Shown one piece after another: positions 2,214-41,234 of a stretch of 41,870 nucleotides of DNA. Every line of letters begins with the position of its first letter. Within the stretch, counting starts at the first letter, position 1. The translations under genes and the position numbers were made by a program. The stretch is from a virus. The stretch lies in IMG/VR virus record IMGVR_UViG_3300022745_000069, positions 1-41,870 of that record; one strand, given 5' to 3'. The notes beneath the pieces are model-generated. The model was given only the letters and a program-made list of their open reading frames with translations, did no database searches and was not told where the DNA came from.

Positions 2214-3434
2214 ATGTCCCTGCAGGACCTCTACAACAAGCGCGCCGCCGCGTGGGCGCTGGCGCAGCAGTACAACGAGCGGACCGACCTCACGGCCGAG
2301 GACAAGGCGTCCTGGGACCGGGCGATGGCCGACATCGACTCGCTCACGAAGGACATCGAGCGCGCCGAGCGCCACTCGGGTCTCGACAAGGCCTTCCGCA
2401 AGATCGACGAGCAGACCTCGGTCGTCGACCCCGCCAACGGTGAGCGCGGCAAGCCCGGCCAGGGCGTGGACGAGTACCGCGACGCCTTCAACGCCTACCT
2501 CCGGCGCGGCCTCATGGGCATCACCGCCGAGCAGCGTCAGCTCATGGAGGCCCAGTTCCGTGACCTGTCCGCCGGCACCACGACCGCCGGTGGCTTCACG
2601 GTCCCGCAGGGCTTCTGGGCCCGCGTCGTGGAGACGCTGAAGTGGTACGCGGTCGTCTACGAGGACGCCGAGTTCATCACCACGGAGACGGGCAACCTGC
2701 TCCCCTGGCCGACCAACGACGACACCGCCAACATCGGCGAGATCATCGGTGAGAACACGACGATCACGTTCCAGGACGTGACCTTCGCGCAGACCTCGCT
2801 GAGCGCCTTCATCTACTCGACGAAGGGCATCAAGGCCTCGCTCGCCCTCCTGCAGGACTCCGGCATCGACATGGAGTCGTGGCTGGCGAAGAAGATGGGC
2901 CAGCGCTTCGGCCGCATCCTGAACACCCACCTCACCACGGGCACCGGCACCGGCCAGCCGCAGGGCTTCATCACCGGCGCCACCACCGGCAAGACCGGCC
3001 TCGTCGGCCAGACCACCACGGTGATCTACGACGACCTCGTGGACCTGCAGCACTCGGTGGACGTGGCGTACCGCAACGCCAACGCGAAGTGGTACATGCA
3101 CGACCTCTCGCTGGCCGTCGTGCGCAAGCTGAAGGACACGCAGGGTCACCCCCTGTGGGAGCCCTCGCTGACCACCGGCGTCCCGAGCACCCTGCTCGGC
3201 GCTCCGGTGCGCATCAACAACTTCATGGCGACGATGGCGGCCAACGCCAAGTCGATCGCCTACGGCGACCTGAACACCGGGTACGTCGTGCGGCAGGCCG
3301 CCGGCCTGCAGATGAAGCGCCTCGACGAGCGCTTCGCCGAACTCCTGCAGGTCGCCTTCTTCGGCTTCGGCCGGTTCGACGGCAAGGTGCAGGACTCGTC
3401 GGCCTTCAAGCTGTACGTCAACTCGGCGACCTGA
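2214..3434 (+). CDS. Major capsid protein (HK97 fold)
   Basis: 406 aa. It builds the icosahedral shell. The first 100 or so residues are charged and helical (MSLQDLYNKRAAAWALAQQ, repeated Asp/Lys/Glu), as in the cleavable delta domain. The mature core probably begins around DLSAGTTTAGGFTVPQGF, a typical HK97-like start. Further landmarks are the E-loop/P-domain region with LPWPTNDDTANIGEIIGE, the run GTGTGQPQGFITGA, and DLVDLQHSVDVAYRNANAKWYMHD. It starts 3 nt after the protease stop and is followed by a UUCG-capped hairpin, which may limit read-through and so favour high capsid expression. Confidence 0.96.
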   Translation: MSLQDLYNKRAAAWALAQQYNERTDLTAEDKASWDRAMADIDSLTKDIERAERHSGLDKAFRKIDEQTSVVDPANGERGKPGQGVDEYRDAFNAYLRRGLMGITAEQRQLMEAQFRDLSAGTTTAGGFTVPQGFWARVVETLKWYAVVYEDAEFITTETGNLLPWPTNDDTANIGEIIGENTTITFQDVTFAQTSLSAFIYSTKGIKASLALLQDSGIDMESWLAKKMGQRFGRILNTHLTTGTGTGQPQGFITGATTGKTGLVGQTTTVIYDDLVDLQHSVDVAYRNANAKWYMHDLSLAVVRKLKDTQGHPLWEPSLTTGVPSTLLGAPVRINNFMATMAANAKSIAYGDLNTGYVVRQAAGLQMKRLDERFAELLQVAFFGFGRFDGKVQDSSAFKLYVNSAT

Positions 3435-6321: not shown

Positions 6322-6834
6322 ATGGCAGGCAACAAGTACATCGCCAACTCGGCGGGCACGCTCACCGAGGTGGCCGCGAACCAGGTGTCGGCAGGCGCGG
6401 GTGACGCGGGCAAGATCGTGGCGCTCGACGCCACGGGCCGCATCGACACCTCGATGATGCCGACCGGCATCGGCGCCGACACGGCGGCCATCACCACGTC
6501 CGAGGCGCTCGCCGCGGGCGACTTCGTCAACGTGTTCAACAACGCGGGCACGCCGAACGTGCGCAAGGCCGACGCCTCGGTGGCCGGTAAGGAGGCCATG
6601 GGCTTCGTGCTGGCCGCCTTCGGCGCCGCCGCCACCGCCACGGTGTTCTTCGAGGGCACGAACACGCAGGTGACCGGTCAGACGGCGGGCAAGGTGTTCC
6701 TGTCGGCCACGACGCCCGGGAAGACGACGTCGACCGCTCCGGCCACCGCTGGCCAGGTCGTGCAGGTCGTCGGCTTCGCCACGTCGGCGACGACGGTGAA
6801 CTGCCAGATCGAGCTTCCGATCACGCTGGCCTGA
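6322..6834 (+). CDS. Beta-rich virion decoration-like protein
   Basis: 170 aa, preceded by an AGGAG site at 6312-6316. It has alternating small-residue strands and no charged core: AGDAGKIVALDATGRIDTSM, AAGDFVNVFNNAG, AMGFVLAAFGAAATATVFFE, GKVFLSATTPGK, VVQVVGFATSAT. The plan 'aGd...vf...g..nvRkAda....a.GFv...g.a.tatV...G' is typical of phage head decoration or tail-associated domains that occur once or in tandem. It resembles the C-terminal module of the preceding protein. A capsid-cement or neck-decoration role is inferred. Confidence 0.75.
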   Translation: MAGNKYIANSAGTLTEVAANQVSAGAGDAGKIVALDATGRIDTSMMPTGIGADTAAITTSEALAAGDFVNVFNNAGTPNVRKADASVAGKEAMGFVLAAFGAAATATVFFEGTNTQVTGQTAGKVFLSATTPGKTTSTAPATAGQVVQVVGFATSATTVNCQIELPITLA

Positions 6835-6835
6835 C

Positions 6836-7171
6836 GTGCCGAAGGTACTGCAGCACGACGGCAACGGTGGCCTCGCGGAGATCAGCGTGGCCACCGGCGT
6901 GCAGACCGGCACGGCGGTGGTGACGGTGACGTCGGTGGGCGGCTCGCGCTCGCGCGCCTCGGGCACCGTCACGGCCGCCTCGTGCACGCCGGCGTCCGTC
7001 GTGTTCGTCACCTGGGGTCCGGTGACGAACGCCGATCAGAACGACCCCGAACTCGACGACGTGAGCTTCTTCGCCGTGCCCGGCACCGGCTCGTTCACGC
7101 TGAACGTCACCTCCGAGGACCCCTTCGCGGTGGTGCAGGGCGCCTACCGCATCAACTACATGATCGGATGA
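6836..7171 (+). CDS. Small beta-rich virion protein
   Basis: 111 aa, GTG start 1 nt after the previous stop. Almost all Thr/Val/Ser/Gly with short strands, e.g. GTAVVTVTSVGGSRSR, ASVVFVTWGPVTN, SFFAVPGTGSFTLNVTS, ending AYRINYMIG. The ending resembles many phage structural proteins in which a beta sandwich closes with 'G.fti...n...a...v.fnY.ig'. No catalytic motif. It is probably a surface or tail-associated structural protein, given that all its neighbours are virion genes. Confidence 0.7.
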   Translation: MPKVLQHDGNGGLAEISVATGVQTGTAVVTVTSVGGSRSRASGTVTAASCTPASVVFVTWGPVTNADQNDPELDDVSFFAVPGTGSFTLNVTSEDPFAVVQGAYRINYMIG

Positions 7172-8082: not shown

Positions 8083-8640
8083 ATGGCGACCGACGCAACC
8101 AGCATCCTCCTCGCGGGCACCGGCACGTTGTCGGTGGCCACGTTGAGCCCGACCCCGCCCACGTTCCCGACCGACTACACGTCGGCCCTCTCCGTCGCCT
8201 TCAAGGACGTCGGCCTCATCAAGGAGAACGGCGTCACCATCAAGCCGGGCCTCTCGGCGAAGAACTGGAAGGCGTGGCAGTCCGGTGGCTACCCCGTGCG
8301 CACGGCGATCACGCAGCGCACGCTCGACATCGAGGTCGAGATGGAGGAAGCCATGAGCCAGACGCCCTTCGTGCTCGCGATGGGCGGCGGCACGTGGACC
8401 CCGGGCACCGGCGCGGCCTACTCGTACACGCCGCCCACGGGCTCGTCGGTGGACGAGCGCGGCGCCGTGCTCGACATCTCCGACGGCACGAAGGTGATGC
8501 GCCTGATCGCCTACCGCACGCTCGTGACGGCCCTCGGCGACTTCAACGTGCAGCGCGAGGAGATCACCTCGCTCAAGATCACCCTGTCGGCCCTCCTGCC
8601 CACGACCGGGCCGGTCTGGCAGATTTACGCGACGAAGTGA
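8083..8640 (+). CDS. Major tail (tube) protein
   Basis: 185 aa, with AGGAGA at 8071-8076 before the ATG. It would polymerise into the tail tube. Evidence: position directly before the frameshifting chaperone pair and tape measure; size usual for tube subunits; landmarks such as FKDVGLIKENGVTIKPGLSA (the 'wk.lGyv.edGv.i..' pattern of tube proteins), AWQSGGYPVRTAITQRTLDI, and the C-terminal KVMRLIAYRTLVTALGDFNV followed by EITSLKITLSALL. It has its own leader after two hairpins, in keeping with strong expression. Confidence 0.9.
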   Translation: MATDATSILLAGTGTLSVATLSPTPPTFPTDYTSALSVAFKDVGLIKENGVTIKPGLSAKNWKAWQSGGYPVRTAITQRTLDIEVEMEEAMSQTPFVLAMGGGTWTPGTGAAYSYTPPTGSSVDERGAVLDISDGTKVMRLIAYRTLVTALGDFNVQREEITSLKITLSALLPTTGPVWQIYATK

Positions 8641-30819: not shown

Positions 30820-31310
30820 ACGTCGTCGGGCTCGACCTCTCCCTCGTGGCCACCGGCGTGGCCTACTCCGACGGCACCACGGCCACCGTGAAGACCAAGG
30901 CCGAGACGCCGATCATGGAGCGGCTCGAATGGATTCGGACCCGGTGCTACGAGGCGGTGCGCATCGACGAGCACGCCGACCTCGTGGTGATCGAGGACTT
31001 CGTGGTCCTCTCGAACGCCTCGTCGTTGCTCGGCATGTTGCACGGCGTCGTCCGGCACAACCTGTGGGCGAACGACGTGCGGTGCCTGTTCATCCCGCCG
31101 TCCACGCTGAAGAAGTTCGCCACCGGCAAGGGCAACGCCACGAAGCCGGACATGCGCGTGGCCCTGAAGGACCGCACCGGCATCGACCTCCGCGACGACA
31201 ACCAGTGCGACGCGTACTGGCTGCGCCTTCTCGGCCTCCACCTGCTCGGTGAGCCCGCCGTGCAGCTCCCGCAGACGCACACCGATGCGCTGAAGAAGGT
31301 GGTGGGGTGA
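30816..31310 (+). CDS. RuvC-like Holliday junction resolvase
   Basis: 164 aa from GTG 30816 in a GTGA overlap. VVGLDLSLVATGVAYSDG gives the first acidic residue (Asp7) with the DxS pattern, LVVIEDFV gives Glu60, and DLRDDNQCDAYWLRLLG gives Asp128 and Asp132 in the last helix, as in RuvC-family resolvases (RNase H fold). HGVVRHNLWANDVRCLFIPP and LKKFATGKGNATKPDM are typical of the phage group. It would resolve recombination or replication junctions before packaging. Confidence 0.85.
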   Translation: MNVVGLDLSLVATGVAYSDGTTATVKTKAETPIMERLEWIRTRCYEAVRIDEHADLVVIEDFVVLSNASSLLGMLHGVVRHNLWANDVRCLFIPPSTLKKFATGKGNATKPDMRVALKDRTGIDLRDDNQCDAYWLRLLGLHLLGEPAVQLPQTHTDALKKVVG

Positions 31311-32449
31311 CCCTCACGGCCGCCACCGCGTGCTCGGGCATCGAAGGCATCGGCCTCGGGCTCGAACGGTGCGGCATCCCCATCGTGTGGAACTCGGAGA
31401 TCGAGCCGCACGCGAACGCCGTGCTGGCGCGGCACTGGCCCGATGTCCCGAACCTCGGCGACATCAAACTGATCGATTGGAGCACCGTTGAGCGGCCCGA
31501 CATCTTCGCCGCCGGATACCCCTGTCAGCCCTTCTCCCTCGCGGGCTCGCGTAAAGGTGAAGCGGACCCGCGTCACCTCTGGCCGTATGTGGCCCGAGCC
31601 ATTCGCGCGCTACGACCTCGCTTCGTCATCTTGGAGAACGTGCCCGGACACCGAAGCCTCGGGTTCGACGCCGTTCTCGGCGATCTGGCCGCGTGCGGGT
31701 ACGATGCTGAATGGGACGGCATACCAGCTTCCTCCGTCGGCGCCCGTCACCAGAGGGACCGTCTCATCGTTGTTGCCTACCCCCACGGCGGCACGGTACG
31801 GACGGAACCGGTCGGTGTCTTCCGGCGCATCGGATCGTCTCTCGCTGCAGCAGATGGCGTCGCGGGGCGAGTGGCCGGACCAACCGATGTGGCCGACGCC
31901 GCGGGTGTCGGCGGACTGCACGTCGGCGTGGGCGGCGAAGGACATCACGAAGCGGTCGAGCCCGAGCCTCGCTCAGGCGGTCGAGCTGGCCGCCGGAGTG
32001 CTCCCGCGGGAAGTGGAGAGCCTGGCGGAAGTGCCACCGTCGTGGGCGGCGTTGTGGCCTCAGGCGAGCGACCTGTGGCCGACGCCGATCGCGAGGGACG
32101 GACGGACACCGAAGGGCGCGGCGAGAATGCCGACGGCCGAGGGCTCGGACCCGCTGGCGGTGGTGGTCGGTGGGCCGTTGAATCCCGAGTGGGTCGAATG
32201 CCTCATGGGGTTCCCGCGTGGTTGGACGGCTCTTGGGAGCGAGACGTCCCTCGCTCCGCGCCTCGTGCGAAAGACGCACGGCGCCGGATCAAGGCCCTCG
32301 GCAACGCGTGCGTCCAGCAGGTCTTCGAGTACGTCGGGCTCTGCCTCATCGACGCCTTCGACCTCTACGACGAGATCGAGTTCGAGTCGGTCGAAGCCGG
32401 CGAGCTCGACGCCCTCCACGAAGCCGAAGGGGAAGCCGATGACGCGTAG
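31307..32449 (+). CDS. DNA (cytosine-5) methyltransferase
   Basis: 380 aa from GTG 31307 (GTGA overlap). C5-methyltransferase motifs in order: I TACSGIEGIGLGLERCG; IV GYPCQPFSLAG with catalytic Cys73; VI VILENVPG (Glu110); VIII VGARHQRDRLIVVAYP (Arg150-Asp-Arg152); and X IKALGNACVQQVFEYV near the end. The target-recognition region (about 165-310) is very Gly/Ala/Glu-rich but includes WAVESRVGRMPHGVP, a pattern I know from phage relatives. It may protect phage DNA from host restriction. No cognate restriction gene is in the window. A second reading frame across most of this gene also looks coding. Confidence 0.88.
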   Translation: MTLTAATACSGIEGIGLGLERCGIPIVWNSEIEPHANAVLARHWPDVPNLGDIKLIDWSTVERPDIFAAGYPCQPFSLAGSRKGEADPRHLWPYVARAIRALRPRFVILENVPGHRSLGFDAVLGDLAACGYDAEWDGIPASSVGARHQRDRLIVVAYPHGGTVRTEPVGVFRRIGSSLAAADGVAGRVAGPTDVADAAGVGGLHVGVGGEGHHEAVEPEPRSGGRAGRRSAPAGSGEPGGSATVVGGVVASGERPVADADREGRTDTEGRGENADGRGLGPAGGGGRWAVESRVGRMPHGVPAWLDGSWERDVPRSAPRAKDARRRIKALGNACVQQVFEYVGLCLIDAFDLYDEIEFESVEAGELDALHEAEGEADDA

Positions 32450-34624: not shown

Positions 34625-34896
34625 ACGTCGCCGAGGTCGAGCAGATCACCGAGGCGTGGCTGCACTGGTGCGGCCACCTGAACCTCGGGTTCGACGCCGA
34701 GGACCTCGTGTGCCGCGGCTGTAGGTTCGAGGTGAAGGCCGGGCGGAACCCCGGGGAGATCACGCGGTTCATGGTCGTGTTCTGGCCACGCGTGATCGAG
34801 CCGATCACGGACGCCAAGCGGCAGATGCTCACGTTCGCCATGCTCGGCGGCACGATGAAGGTGCCGGGGCCCGAGGGCGAGATGAGGGCGACGTGA
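34621..34896 (+). CDS. Small protein with possible zinc site
   Basis: 91 aa in a GTGA overlap. AEVEQITEAWLHWCGHLNLG, then EDLVCRGCRFEVKAGRNPGE: Cys-Gly-His and CRGC could bind one metal, though the spacing is not a standard finger. The end (GEITRFMVVFWPRVIEP and MLTFAMLGGTMKVPG) forms strands. No family known to me. It sits directly before the primase-polymerase. Confidence 0.62.
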   Translation: MNVAEVEQITEAWLHWCGHLNLGFDAEDLVCRGCRFEVKAGRNPGEITRFMVVFWPRVIEPITDAKRQMLTFAMLGGTMKVPGPEGEMRAT

Positions 34897-36113
34897 CCGT
34901 GCTCGACCACGCCCTCGGCTACGCCCGGATCGGCTGGCGCGTCGCACCGGTGAAGCCGGGGACGCGCTGGCCGCGCATCGACGCGTGGCAGGAGAACGCG
35001 TCCACGGAGCGCTCGGAGATCGAGCGGTGGTGGACGCAGTGGCCCGACTCGGACGTGAGCGTCGTGTGCGGGCGCGAGAGCCGCCTGTGGGTGCTCGACG
35101 TGGACGTGAAGAACCACGCCGGTGGCGACGAGAGCCTCGCCATGCTCATCGAGGAGCACGGGCCCCTCGGGGACACGCTGACGGTGCAGACGCCCTCGGG
35201 CGGCCGTCACTACTACTGGCGCTGGCCGGAGGGCGACGTCGAGCTGACGACGTCGGCGAGCCAGGTGGCGCCCGGGATCGACGTGCGGGCCACCGGTGGG
35301 CAGGTGGTGGCGCCGCCGAGCATGGACGGCGGCTACGTGTGGTCGTTCGACGGCGGCGACCCGCTCGAAGGTGAGCTGCCCGCGTACGCGCCCGAGTGGC
35401 TCGTGCGGGTGGTGGTGGAGGCCGCGAGAGAGCGCCACGTCGAGCCACGTCGAGCTCGCCGCACCGACGCCGACATGGACCTGCCCGGCGACTACTTCGC
35501 GGCCACGGTGTCGTGGGCGGCGATGCTCGAAGCGGACGGGTGGACGTTGCACTCGGTGCACGGCGGCACCGAGCTGTGGACGCGCCCGGGGAAGGACAAG
35601 CGGGACGGGCCGTCGGCCAGCCTCTACTACGGCGGGAGCGACACGCTGAAGGTGTTCTCCTCCGCGCCGGAGCTGACGAAGCTCGGGCTCGAAGCGGGGA
35701 AGACCTACGAGCGCTTCGGCTACCTCGCGGCGTCGCGCTACGGCGGCGACCACGCCGCGGCGGCCCGGGCGGTGCGCACGGTGATGCCGAGGCGGCCCGC
35801 CATCGTGCTCGCCGGCTCCACGCCCTCGAGACCGACGAAGTCTACTTCCGGTATCGATGACATGCTGGCGCCGCCCGTGGCGCCCGGGCCCACCGAGAGC
35901 GACGACCCCGAGCCCGCCCTGCTCGACGAGGACCTGCTCGACGCTCTCCCGCCGCTCACACGGCCGCCCGGGCCCGGGATCGCCCGCCCGGAGGACTGGC
36001 ACGGCATGAGCCTCCGCGCTGACGCCGAGCGGCGCCTCGCCGGCGAGCCCCCGGAGCGGCCGCGGCTCGGGCTCGTGCATCCGGCCGGGACCCGCCCGAC
36101 CGTTCCCCTGTGA
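34893..36113 (+). CDS. Bifunctional DNA primase/polymerase (prim-pol, AEP)
   Basis: 406 aa from GTG 34893. Residues 1-170 are the prim-pol domain: ALGYARIGWRVAPVKPGTRW, WWTQWPDSDVSVVCGRESRL, WVLDVDVKNHAGG with the metal-binding Asp69-x-Asp71, LTVQTPSGGRHYYWRW with His106, and GIDVRATGGQVVAPPS with Asp130. All AEP catalytic residues are present. Residues 190-290 form a second domain (WAAMLEADGWTLHSVHGGTE, RPGKDKRDGPSASLYYGG) found in phage primases. The C-terminal 110 residues are Pro/Ala/Asp-rich. It works with the ATPase encoded next to start replication. Confidence 0.9.
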   Translation: MTVLDHALGYARIGWRVAPVKPGTRWPRIDAWQENASTERSEIERWWTQWPDSDVSVVCGRESRLWVLDVDVKNHAGGDESLAMLIEEHGPLGDTLTVQTPSGGRHYYWRWPEGDVELTTSASQVAPGIDVRATGGQVVAPPSMDGGYVWSFDGGDPLEGELPAYAPEWLVRVVVEAARERHVEPRRARRTDADMDLPGDYFAATVSWAAMLEADGWTLHSVHGGTELWTRPGKDKRDGPSASLYYGGSDTLKVFSSAPELTKLGLEAGKTYERFGYLAASRYGGDHAAAARAVRTVMPRRPAIVLAGSTPSRPTKSTSGIDDMLAPPVAPGPTESDDPEPALLDEDLLDALPPLTRPPGPGIARPEDWHGMSLRADAERRLAGEPPERPRLGLVHPAGTRPTVPL

Positions 36114-36141: not shown

Positions 36142-37347
36142 ATGGCTGAGGATGGACTCATCTACGACGGCCGCGTGTCGGCGATCTTCGGCCGCCCCGG
36201 TGGCGGGAAGACGTGGATCGCCGCCGACCTGATCGCGCAGACGATCAAGGCCGGGCAGTACGTGGCGTGGATCGACTACGAGGACACCTCACGGGGCGCC
36301 GCGGGCCGCCTGCTCGACCTCGGGTGCACCCTCGATGAGATCGACCGCGTCACGTACTACGCCCCGGCCACGTCGTTCGAGTGGGGCCTCATCGCCCTGC
36401 AGGAGGACGTGATCGCCGCGGGCCGAGAAGTGGCTCTCGTCGTGCTCGACTCCGTCGGCGAGGCCCTTGCCGCGTCGGCCGTGAAGGGCGGCGAGGACGA
36501 CGGCGTGGCGGCGTTCATGCGGTGGGTGCGCGCCTGGGCGGCGGCGCCGAGCTCGCCCGCGGTGCTCGTGATCGACCACGTGCCGAAGGCTGAGGACGCA
36601 CCGAAGGGCTACGCCATCGGGTCCCAGCGCAAGCTCGCGGCGATCACCGGGGCGGCGTACCTCATCGAGACGCTGCAGGAGCCTGCTCGTGGCGTTGACG
36701 GCACCTTGAAGATGACGGTGGCGAAGGATCGGCTCGGGGCTCGGCCGAAGGACTCCACGGCGGCCCTGGTGCACGTGCGGACCAACGCCTCGGGCGCGGT
36801 GCGGCTCACCTTCGTGGCCCCTCGCACGGACGTCACGGCGGACGCCACGGAGGCCGGCGGTGCGGGCGCTGAGGTCGTGTTCCGGCCGACCGGGCTCATG
36901 GAGCGGGTGTCGACGTGGCTCGAATCAGTACCTCGGGGTGCCTCTCAGAGGGGGGTCCGGGGTGCGGTCACCGGCAAGGATCAGGCGCTCATTAAAGCAA
37001 TTGAGGTCCTGAGGGACGAGGGCTATATCACTGTCGATGGCACCGGGAAGTACCACTCGGCCCGGCCCTACCGCGAGTCGACGGACCCTCGGATGGCCTC
37101 GATGATCGCTGATCGGCCCGGGTGGTTCCCGGTGGTTCCCGGTGGTTCCCAGGTGGTTCCCGGGAACCACTTGATCCCGGCATCGGAGGGTGGTTCCCCC
37201 GGTTCCCGATCGGTCCCCCCCGTAGGGGGGGACCGGGCACCGGGGAACCACCCGAGCACCCTCGGAGGCACCACTTCGTCTCTGTTCTCGGCCGACGACG
37301 GGGAACCACCTCGGGGCGGCGCGGACGACCCCTCGGCCCTCTGGTAG
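36142..37347 (+). CDS. RecA/DnaB-like replicative ATPase (RepA type)
   Basis: 401 aa. Walker A is AIFGRPGGGKTW (15-25), Walker B is EVALVVLDSVGEAL (Asp103), and a later PAVLVIDHVPK holds the sensor-like Asp-His, as in hexameric RepA/DnaB-like helicases of phages with prim-pol. Residues about 250-310 (TGLMERVSTWLESVPRG, GKDQALIKAIEVLRDEGYIT) form a winged helix likely to bind DNA. The last 80 residues are Gly/Pro-rich low complexity because the DNA there carries repeated GGTGGTTCCC units. It probably unwinds DNA at the adjacent origin. Confidence 0.85.
   Translation: MAEDGLIYDGRVSAIFGRPGGGKTWIAADLIAQTIKAGQYVAWIDYEDTSRGAAGRLLDLGCTLDEIDRVTYYAPATSFEWGLIALQEDVIAAGREVALVVLDSVGEALAASAVKGGEDDGVAAFMRWVRAWAAAPSSPAVLVIDHVPKAEDAPKGYAIGSQRKLAAITGAAYLIETLQEPARGVDGTLKMTVAKDRLGARPKDSTAALVHVRTNASGAVRLTFVAPRTDVTADATEAGGAGAEVVFRPTGLMERVSTWLESVPRGASQRGVRGAVTGKDQALIKAIEVLRDEGYITVDGTGKYHSARPYRESTDPRMASMIADRPGWFPVVPGGSQVVPGNHLIPASEGGSPGSRSVPPVGGDRAPGNHPSTLGGTTSSLFSADDGEPPRGGADDPSALW
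37121..37310 (+). repeat. Iteron-like array inside the ATPase 3' end
   Basis: GGTGGTTCCC occurs at 37121, 37131 and 37141 (three in tandem), 37152 and 37189, and inverted as GGGAACCACC at 37243 and 37301, plus a nine-base inverted copy at 37162. A perfect 10-bp hairpin of C and G runs (37212-37221 with 37225-37234) lies between. Several copies within 190 bp next to a replication gene are typical of origin iterons. Confidence 0.72.
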
Positions 37348-37641
37348 CCGAGCCACACCTTCTCGGCCTCCCGTTGAAATGAAATGCGTCGGGAGTTCGG
37401 ATAATTGGCGGCCCGAACTTCAGTGGGCGGAAATGAAAGAGGGGACCCCCCTCGGCCTGGCGAAGGGGCCCCTTAAGCGGTGGCTAAATCTCTTAACCCA
37501 GGGTTATCACAGTTAACTCCCAGGTTCCGTTCATCTCCCGTTCATCTCGTGTCCACCTCCCGTTCACCGAACGGGTGTTCGTGTTAGGCTCACCTAACGG
37601 TCGCCTGGCTCTCGGCTCCACAGTTGCGAAAGAGGATTCGT
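37348..37641 (+). other. Non-coding gap, candidate replication origin
   Basis: No gene in 294 bp. In order it holds: AT-richer sequence than the surroundings (about 37372-37435); a palindrome AAGGGGCCCCTT; TAACCC-A-GGGTTA (37494-37506); GTTAAC; a perfect 11-bp tandem repeat CCGTTCATCTC (37527-37537 and 37538-37548) with a third partial copy at 37560; the inverted repeat CCCGTTC-ACC-GAACGGG (37559-37575); and GTTAGG-CTCA-CCTAAC (37583-37598), which overlaps a possible -10 for the next gene. Together with the array just upstream this is the best origin candidate in the window. Confidence 0.65.
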
Positions 37642-38310
37642 ATGTTGGCACTCCCGACCCCCGACGAGTGGAACGGTACGCTACGTCGGCTCGGCGCGGC
37701 GGTGGCCGATGCGCCCGAGCACGCTGACACGATCGGCCGAGCCCTACGGCGCGCCGTCCGCCACTCGTCCGCGGTGGACGGATGGTCGGCCGGACGGCGC
37801 GCGGGAGAGCAGGGGCGGACGTCGTCAGAGACGACCGTCGTAGAGTCGGCGGTGCTGGCGCGTGCTCGGGCGCGGATGGACGACCACGACCGCGCCACCG
37901 CTCGGGCGGTGCTCGCGCTCGGCCGAGCGGTGGACGCGCTCGAAGGGCTCGCGGTGGCGGTGGCCGAGCTGACCGACCTTCGCGCCGACCCCGAGGGACC
38001 CGCGGGCCGATGCTCGGTGCTCGGCGCGCATGGCATCGACGCGCCCGCGGAGCGGACGACGGACCTAGGTGGCCTACTGCCCGAGCGCGCCCCTGTCTCG
38101 CGGTGGGCTCGGGGGTTCGCGCTCACGAACGGTCGACTACCGAGCGCGGACGAGTGCCGCGCCCATGCTCGGGGCGAGCGCGTCGCGGTGGCGTCGCGCG
38201 CATCGATGACCGAACGCGCCGCGGCCGGCGGACCCCCGGACGACCAGGCGGACCCCCACGAGAGCCCACGAGAGCCGATCGCGGGCCCTGGTGGACACTC
38301 GGCGCGCTGA
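37642..38310 (+). CDS. Unknown Ala/Arg-rich protein
   Basis: 222 aa from ATG 37642, which has AGAGGA at 37631-37636. Helical throughout the first 150 residues: NGTLRRLGAAVADAPEHADT, IGRALRRAVRHSSAVDGWS, ARARARMDDHDRATARAVLA, LGRAVDALEGLAVAVAELTD. The end is Pro/Gly/His-rich and probably disordered. No family recognised. The first gene after the putative origin, possibly controlled by the inverted repeat at 37583-37598. Confidence 0.65.
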   Translation: MLALPTPDEWNGTLRRLGAAVADAPEHADTIGRALRRAVRHSSAVDGWSAGRRAGEQGRTSSETTVVESAVLARARARMDDHDRATARAVLALGRAVDALEGLAVAVAELTDLRADPEGPAGRCSVLGAHGIDAPAERTTDLGGLLPERAPVSRWARGFALTNGRLPSADECRAHARGERVAVASRASMTERAAAGGPPDDQADPHESPREPIAGPGGHSAR

Positions 38311-39664: not shown

Positions 39665-39740
39665 GAGTCGGTGCGACTCGGTGCGATCAGAGTAACGCAC
39701 CGCTACCGATCGTAAGTGGATTCGAGATGAACAAACGGTG
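39665..39740 (-). promoter_or_regulatory. Right-arm promoter/operator, copy 1
   Basis: On the reverse strand: a conserved block TTTGTTCATCTCGAATCCAC, then -10 TACTCT (39694-39689), then the perfect inverted repeat GAGTCG-GTG-CGACTC (39665-39679) just downstream of the predicted start. Closely similar to 41159-41234. A poor -35 suggests activator help. Confidence 0.65.
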
Positions 39741-41158: not shown

Positions 41159-41234
41159 GAGTCGGTGCGACTCGGTGCGATCAATGTAACCCACCGCTAC
41201 ACCTCGTGAGTGGATTCCAGATGAACAAACGGTG
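41159..41234 (-). promoter_or_regulatory. Right-arm promoter/operator, copy 2
   Basis: Reverse strand: TTTGTTCATCTGGAATCCAC, -10 TACATT (41188-41183), then GAGTCG-GTG-CGACTC (41159-41173) just after the predicted start. Near-identical to the copy at 39665-39740, including the upstream block and distance to the ATG. Confidence 0.65.

Follow-up and report, generated by a model that had tools for sequence, protein, structure and literature searches.

What is a dense array of 10-bp repeats doing at the 3′ end of a phage ATPase gene? The question is raised by a window of 41,870 bp, a whole virus record (IMG/VR IMGVR_UViG_3300022745_000069), which we infer to be a temperate tailed phage because it carries portal, head, tail, endolysin and integrase genes. 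A Prim-Pol primase-polymerase gene on the forward strand (34893..36113; PF09250, E 1.3e-38; phrog_1156 DNA primase, E 1.3e-34) lies directly upstream of a second forward-strand gene encoding a RecA-like (AAA_25) ATPase (36142..37347; PF13481, E 5.1e-11), which ends in a predicted winged helix and a tail read through the array. Further upstream, a few kb from the replication genes, is a C-5 cytosine DNA methylase gene (31307-32449). We propose that the array is likely the phage replication origin and that it is bound by the winged helix of the ATPase itself, a reading for which we have no binding, replication or marker-frequency data.

A search of the whole window found seven exact copies of the unit, GGTGGTTCCC (five forward, two reverse), every one of them at 37121-37310. 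Four direct, exact copies on the forward strand (37121-37130, 37131-37140, 37141-37150 and 37152-37161) come first, three head to tail and the fourth after one extra base (starts 10, 10 and 11 apart), followed by an inverted copy on the reverse strand recovered by a mismatch search (AGTGGTTCCC, one mismatch; 37162-37171). After a gap there are two further direct copies on the forward strand, one an exact GGTGGTTCCC (37189-37198) and the other a ninth, degenerate copy identified by its 7-base core GGTTCCC (37201-37207). A fold and stem search placed a C-run/G-run hairpin with an 11-bp stem and a 3-nt loop at 37211-37235, between direct and inverted iterons; beyond it an exact inverted copy (37243-37252, reverse strand) pairs with 37189-37198 around the hairpin, and 48 bases on lies an outlying, exact inverted copy (37301-37310, reverse strand). 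Together the stem and its flanking inverted iterons (37186-37256) fold as one long hairpin (z = -6.1 vs shuffles).

This clustering exceeds chance. Allowing at most one mismatch, GGTGGTTCCC has 11 matches in the window vs 2.90 expected, and none of 100 shuffles reached 11; the array holds 9 of the 14 GGTTCCC cores of the whole window, with about 0.03 expected per 190 bp. The reversed word of GGTGGTTCCC does not occur in the window, nor does the window contain a second cluster of the array motif. The array thus satisfies one criterion for an iteron-type origin, several short direct repeats packed more densely than chance would give. A preliminary description had claimed eight direct or inverted copies of a 10-bp unit in 190 bp, three of them in perfect tandem, with a C-run/G-run hairpin between copies, all in the coding 3′ end of the ATPase gene. 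These claims held: there are seven exact copies plus one with a single mismatch, the tandem lies at 37121-37150, the hairpin at 37211-37235, and the open reading frame at 36142-37347 spans the array. Its claim that the protein encoded there is of low complexity held only for the tail after the winged helix, upstream of which are an ordinary ATPase and the winged helix.

Several smaller features surround the array. Downstream of it, 37451-37600 reaches 45-46% AT in 100-bp windows (window mean 30%) and is a possible melting region; this AT-rich intergenic stretch also contains a second repeat, about 3.6 copies of the 11-bp CCGTTCATCTC, at 37527-37566. An Rfam search gave no match, and a scan for sigma-70-like promoters found none at 36900-37700, other promoter types being outside its reach. 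We rejected a transcription terminator as the sole explanation of the hairpin, which a terminator pattern scan did not list. Elsewhere, the 10-base word TCGGTGCGAC occurs in tandem at 39668-39686 and again at 41162-41180, about 1.5 kb apart.

The motif leads to the same gene in other viruses. The 20-base tandem is present in five viral contigs and a looser motif pair in at least 119, the two scans together giving 122 loci. Using an HMM grown from the window ATPase, we detected the ATPase in 46 of these 122; the motif pair falls at -237 to +190 bp relative to the ATPase stop in 44 of them. With a reversed-motif control, the ATPase was found in 3 of 111 loci. The two exceptions are L066 and L009, the latter having its main cluster directly 3′ of the ATPase gene. 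A further iteron pair of L009 lies at 8255-8273, within the 5′ half of that gene. Among viral loci with at least eight cores, 18 of 23 have the ATPase; the five dense loci without it are L045, L021, L098 and L079, which are glycine-rich repeat genes by inspection, and L104. The last has fourteen GGTTCCC cores at 6417-7118, nearly all on one strand.

Genome records gave a sparser picture, with at least 118 loci, five of which have the ATPase, four of these within 300 bp of the pair. Most single motif pairs are chance matches, as the 111 loci of the reversed control also show. Dense two-strand loci in genome records have the ATPase within 300 bp in three of five cases, and records with the ATPase that close to a pair include Prauserella, Micrococcus, Anaeromyxobacter and a Deltaproteobacteria bin. 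On an Acidobacteriaceae contig (L385), a two-strand cluster of six cores lies near 6692, with no ATPase detected. Scanning viral contigs with the window ATPase as a single protein returned no relative, and an alignment (A1) was needed; a genome scan with one protein found 48 stretches that fit the pattern, none encoding a relative.

We therefore asked the question from the protein side as well, scoring loci that alignment A1 had fetched without any use of the motif (80 loci, 78 after two short ones were left out). Each locus was scored by how often its commonest 8-mer occurred in a 600 bp stretch spanning the ATPase stop, and windows elsewhere in the same loci served as controls. An 8-mer occurred at least five times in 56 of 78 ATPase loci vs 12 of 822 control windows, and at least six times in 40 of 78 vs 3 of 822. 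Two further scans gave 149 loci, reduced to a held-out set of 43 by removing proteins at least 90% identical to earlier ones or to each other; here, with one locus left out, an 8-mer occurred at least five times in 22 of 42 vs 2 of 364 control windows. The motif and protein sets overlap, and their counts are not independent since several contigs (e.g. L064 and L266) occur in both. Linkage to the replication-protein gene across relatives, a further criterion for an iteron origin, is met by these counts (44/46, 56/78 and 22/42).

The array is not universal among ATPase loci: no 8-mer reached four copies in 11 of 78 loci of the first set and 13 of 42 of the held-out set. The gene for gp43 of corynephage BFK20, a characterised phage primase-polymerase, has no array at its 3′ end. 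Seven loci belong to named phages, among which MinS1, Dagobah and P8625 have 7-9 repeat copies, Rasputia and Leaf have four each, and Dulem virus 38 and KimJongPhill have at most three. The iteron letters vary, from GGTGGTTCCC in the window to ACCTCGTCCC in Microcystis phage MinS1 and others, and ACCCTTTCCC, ACCGCGCCCC, ACTAGTTCCC, AGTTGTTCCC and AGTTTTTCCC in further relatives. A frame of A-[CG]-[CT]-NNN-[TC]CCC loosely fits most of them; Dagobah and P8625 do not fit.

What recurs is the layout. Set side by side, arrays built from different iterons open with three or four direct copies and a single inverted one; beyond a gap come one or two more direct copies, often a palindrome, and then an inverted copy with additional copies after it. 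Likeness was judged by eye, and some arrays deviate. The longest stem averages 9.0 bp in arrays vs 5.0 in shuffles and 5.2 in control windows, and reaches at least 8 bp in 68 of 90 arrays; this statistic is not independent of the array itself because inverted iterons make up part of many stems. The first iteron begins a median of 43 nt (IQR 13-63) after the end of the winged helix across 75 loci, with the array coding in 27 and starting at or after the stop in 48 (array starts within 40 nt before the stop were counted as after). This spacing from the winged helix is thus kept with the stop codon on either side of the array. Coding arrays use three codon frames in 29 of 32 cases and two in the other 3, and the window array uses all three frames and both strands. 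AT content is raised beside array starts in 37 loci, by a mean of +0.88 and +0.81 SD in the adjoining 100-bp bins, a modest enrichment and the least convincing part of the case for a classical melting region.

These comparisons bear on the proposal that the DNA rather than the protein is selected in the array region, and in them it is the DNA, not the protein, that has been preserved. The expectation that relatives would keep the DNA repeats while the protein varied was met for the array as a structure, through same-place repeats in motif-free relatives, the fixed winged-helix distance and the use of all codon frames. Two corrections are needed. The repeat letters are not kept, and the iteron unit is lineage-specific, since nearest relatives such as L277 carry CCGCGCCC in the same place. 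The coding position is incidental, because 48 of the 75 scored arrays start at or after the ATPase stop. The central claim of the preliminary description, origin iterons inside a replicative ATPase gene, is supported, with origin activity itself inferred.

A candidate reader of the array is encoded immediately beside it. The AlphaFold model of ATPase residues 1-321 (mean pLDDT 87.5) has a RecA/DnaB-like core and a C-terminal winged helix, and aligns to RAD51 and DnaB chains with VIA-align Z of about 20-21. DSSP on the model assigned the winged-helix elements to H250-261, H269-275, H280-292, E296-298 and E304-306, so that the proposed iteron-binding domain spans residues ~250-306 (36889..37059, forward strand); the array starts just beyond these codons, within the ATPase reading frame. 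Modelled alone, the domain reaches a mean pLDDT of 93.2; Foldseek places it among winged-helix proteins, though without a hit at E <= 0.001. The Prim-Pol domain is a separate gene in the window and is fused to the ATPase in several relatives.

Winged helix and iteron tend to change together. The closely related phages L276 and L279 differ in their iterons. Compared in 60-bp bins, their DNA shows 90-100% identity for ~1.4 kb ahead of the winged helix; identity drops to 63-80% across the winged-helix codons and to 0-57% across the array, and is back at 83-100% from +300. The array of L282 has also diverged from that of L276 although their iteron is the same, so the array region is variable in general; and since the loci are metagenome contigs, any one pair could reflect an assembly artefact. 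Of 61 proteins, 23 belong to iterons with CG before the C-run; among these, 20 carry Arg at helix-3 position b (window residue 284) and 17 carry Glu at helix-2 position a (window residue 273). The 38 proteins with non-CG iterons have neither residue. Seven loci of ambiguous iteron register (L257, L259, L261, L262, L264, L265 and L267) were left out of this analysis; iteron type varies among them too. Within this group, the arrays of L264 and L265 and those of the related L261, L262 and L267 differ between AACTGTTCC-type and AACCGCGCC-type iterons, and L265 mixes the two types in one array, resembling a half-way specificity change.

In a scan of 294 columns, only residue 273 of the 20 columns listed had z > 4 for each of the three variable iteron positions. 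Window residues 34, 22 and 203, all in the ATPase core, also passed z 4, for one iteron position each, which signals shared ancestry. On the ATPase-core tree (which dropped L087) the CG label changes 11 times, and a pair test found six supported independent pairs, with Arg following in ~4.7 and opposing in none (p ~0.06). The held-out code test used 19 of 43 loci, those with fewer than four copies of the called core being left out. First scoring gave Arg in 6/9 vs 3/10 (p 0.18) and Glu in 6/9 vs 1/10 (p 0.02); a register-free definition of CG, chosen after seeing that result, gave Arg in 8/11 vs 1/8 (p 0.020) and Glu in 7/11 vs 0/8 (p 0.013). In the absence of binding data, we conclude that iteron sequence probably tracks these two winged-helix residues, with exceptions.

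The module also occurs on plasmids. In a tblastn search of 72,556 plasmid records, the L064 ATPase matched two, both small plasmids. pKRAD02 of Kineococcus radiotolerans, reported to be circular (PMC2587704), carries the window motif, with 9 of its 12 GGTTCCC cores at 1818-1975, inside the 3′ end of the ATPase gene; p-XQ-29-C of Streptomyces griseoaurantiacus has 8 of its 10 CCTGCCC cores at 3160-3333, directly after the ATPase stop at 3159. In a Pfam search of four proteins per plasmid, the AAA_25 ATPase was the sole replication candidate, and the other families were ParA-type, HTH, FtsK-type and DUF2637. The remaining, mostly short hypothetical proteins were not searched; on p-XQ-29-C the four are out of nine annotated. 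pKRAD02 carries a ParA-type gene, and no ParA-type family was found among the four searched proteins of p-XQ-29-C. Without replication data, these plasmids give indirect support for autonomous replication from the array.

In the mechanism we propose, the array would be the cis-acting replication origin of the temperate phage and the ATPase a RecA-fold helicase that uses its C-terminal winged helix to bind the 10-bp iterons lying immediately past the codons of that domain. Cooperative binding to direct and inverted copies would assemble helicase rings and open the duplex nearby. By analogy with RSF1010 (PMC4234260), the hairpin between inverted copies may then be bared as single-stranded DNA at which the adjacent primase-polymerase starts. 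The array, its position, the recurrent layout, the association with the ATPase family, the winged-helix co-variation and the plasmid linkage were computed here; binding, melting, helicase activity, hairpin priming and initiation at the array are inferred.

The nearest parallel is found in PICI/SaPI elements, in which the origin lies 3′ of the initiator-helicase gene and is bound by the C-terminal domain of the helicase, an arrangement also studied for SCCmec (PMC6092414, PMC7581432). As in the PICI/SaPI and SCCmec rep-ori, iterons lie immediately 3′ of a putative initiator-helicase gene with a primase beside it; the array occupies the end of the ATPase gene or follows it directly, so the position matches, the origin role being inferred. 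The phage module differs in that its motor is RecA-like (AAA_25), the array is often inside the reading frame, and most loci are phage contigs. Nor does it show two iteron sets flanking an AT-rich region, since the window sets flank the GC-rich hairpin at 37211-37235. A RecA-like motor combined with PICI/SaPI-style logic would explain the observations made here.

Other systems share parts of the design. The RSF1010 (IncQ) oriV with RepA, RepB' and RepC resembles the proposed module in combining a RecA-fold helicase, a primase, iterons and stem-loops as priming sites (PMC4234260, PMC8965321), but its iteron-binding protein, RepC, is separate, whereas in the window the winged helix is fused to the ATPase. 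The window ATPase has a RecA/DnaB-like fold, and a RepA-type hexamer is inferred by analogy only. In phage P4 alpha and pRN1 ORF904, as proposed for the phage module, primase, helicase and C-terminal winged helix act together (PMC4234260). The pRN1 origin is a stem-loop directly 3′ of the gene, without the iterons of the window array, and the ORF904 helicase is SF3-type (PMC4234260). P4 alpha also uses an SF3-type helicase; its primase is of the Toprim type, and the window has no Toprim fusion, having instead a Prim-Pol (PF09250) in a separate gene. Origin repeats inside the gene of the binding protein are found in lambda, TP901-1 and Tuc2009 (PMC8965321; lambda also PMC7157519), where that protein is a replisome organiser and not an ATPase or helicase. 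We found no earlier description of the array in the literature searched, which included a text search for the decamer with no title on a phage origin among the hits covered; coverage was partial, and absence in print is not shown.

Could the array serve another purpose? It might be an operator through which the ATPase or a separate repressor controls its own operon or downstream genes. Operators typically look like this, with repeated, inverted sites close to a DNA-binding protein, iterons can serve both functions, and a further 11-bp repeat lies in the intergenic 37527-37566. Against this, both phages and plasmids have the sites at the 3′ end instead of ahead of the operon, a scan of 36900-37700 (blind to other promoter types) returned no sigma-70-like promoter, and an operator does not need 7-12 copies and a hairpin; we regard it as unlikely. 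Equally hard to favour is an ssi-like strand-initiation or helicase-loading site that serves priming only, with the double-strand origin elsewhere. The hairpin between inverted iterons would suit it, as would the stem-loops that the RSF1010 primase recognises once RepA has unwound the DNA (PMC4234260), but at least seven duplex iterons tracking a winged helix argue for duplex recognition, and the window lacks a second cluster of the array motif.

A partition (centromere-like) or packaging site that lies beside the ATPase gene by chance seems very improbable. Iteron arrays do serve as centromeres in some plasmids, parS repeats lie directly downstream of repA in two mycobacteriophages (PMC7157519), and pKRAD02 has its ParA-type gene; yet the companion of the array is the ATPase, also on p-XQ-29-C (no ParA-type in four of nine proteins), and it is the ATPase winged helix that co-varies with the repeats. 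Finally, selection could act on a low-complexity protein tail, with the DNA repeats as a by-product. The window array is coding, and four of the five motif-dense loci without ATPase are glycine-rich by inspection. This explanation is nearly ruled out by the use of three codon frames in 29 of 32 coding arrays and of both strands in the window, and by arrays lying outside the reading frame in 48 of 75 loci. An origin bound by the ATPase's own winged helix remains our preferred reading.

A bolder version treats winged helix and array as one self-contained unit of origin specificity that can be exchanged within a widespread replicon family of phages and plasmids. Its 10-mers, with a frame of roughly A-S-Y-NNN-TCCC, would have a variable middle read by a simple two-position winged-helix code, and phages would switch 'incompatibility groups' by swapping a ~500 bp cassette. 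As one joint claim, this seems to us slightly more apt to fail than to hold. The origins of most phages known only by sequence are unknown, and if the module is an origin, it could be located from sequence alone. If true, this would apply to many actinobacterial and other phages and to some plasmids, with the reading protein known; the natural specificity changes would give a testable recognition code, and the modules would offer small, mutually compatible replicons for actinobacteria. In SLP1, an actinobacterial conjugative element (AICE), the Prim-Pol SCO4617 is followed by an unclassified replication gene, SCO4618 (PMC3218068), which may possibly encode the same type of ATPase.
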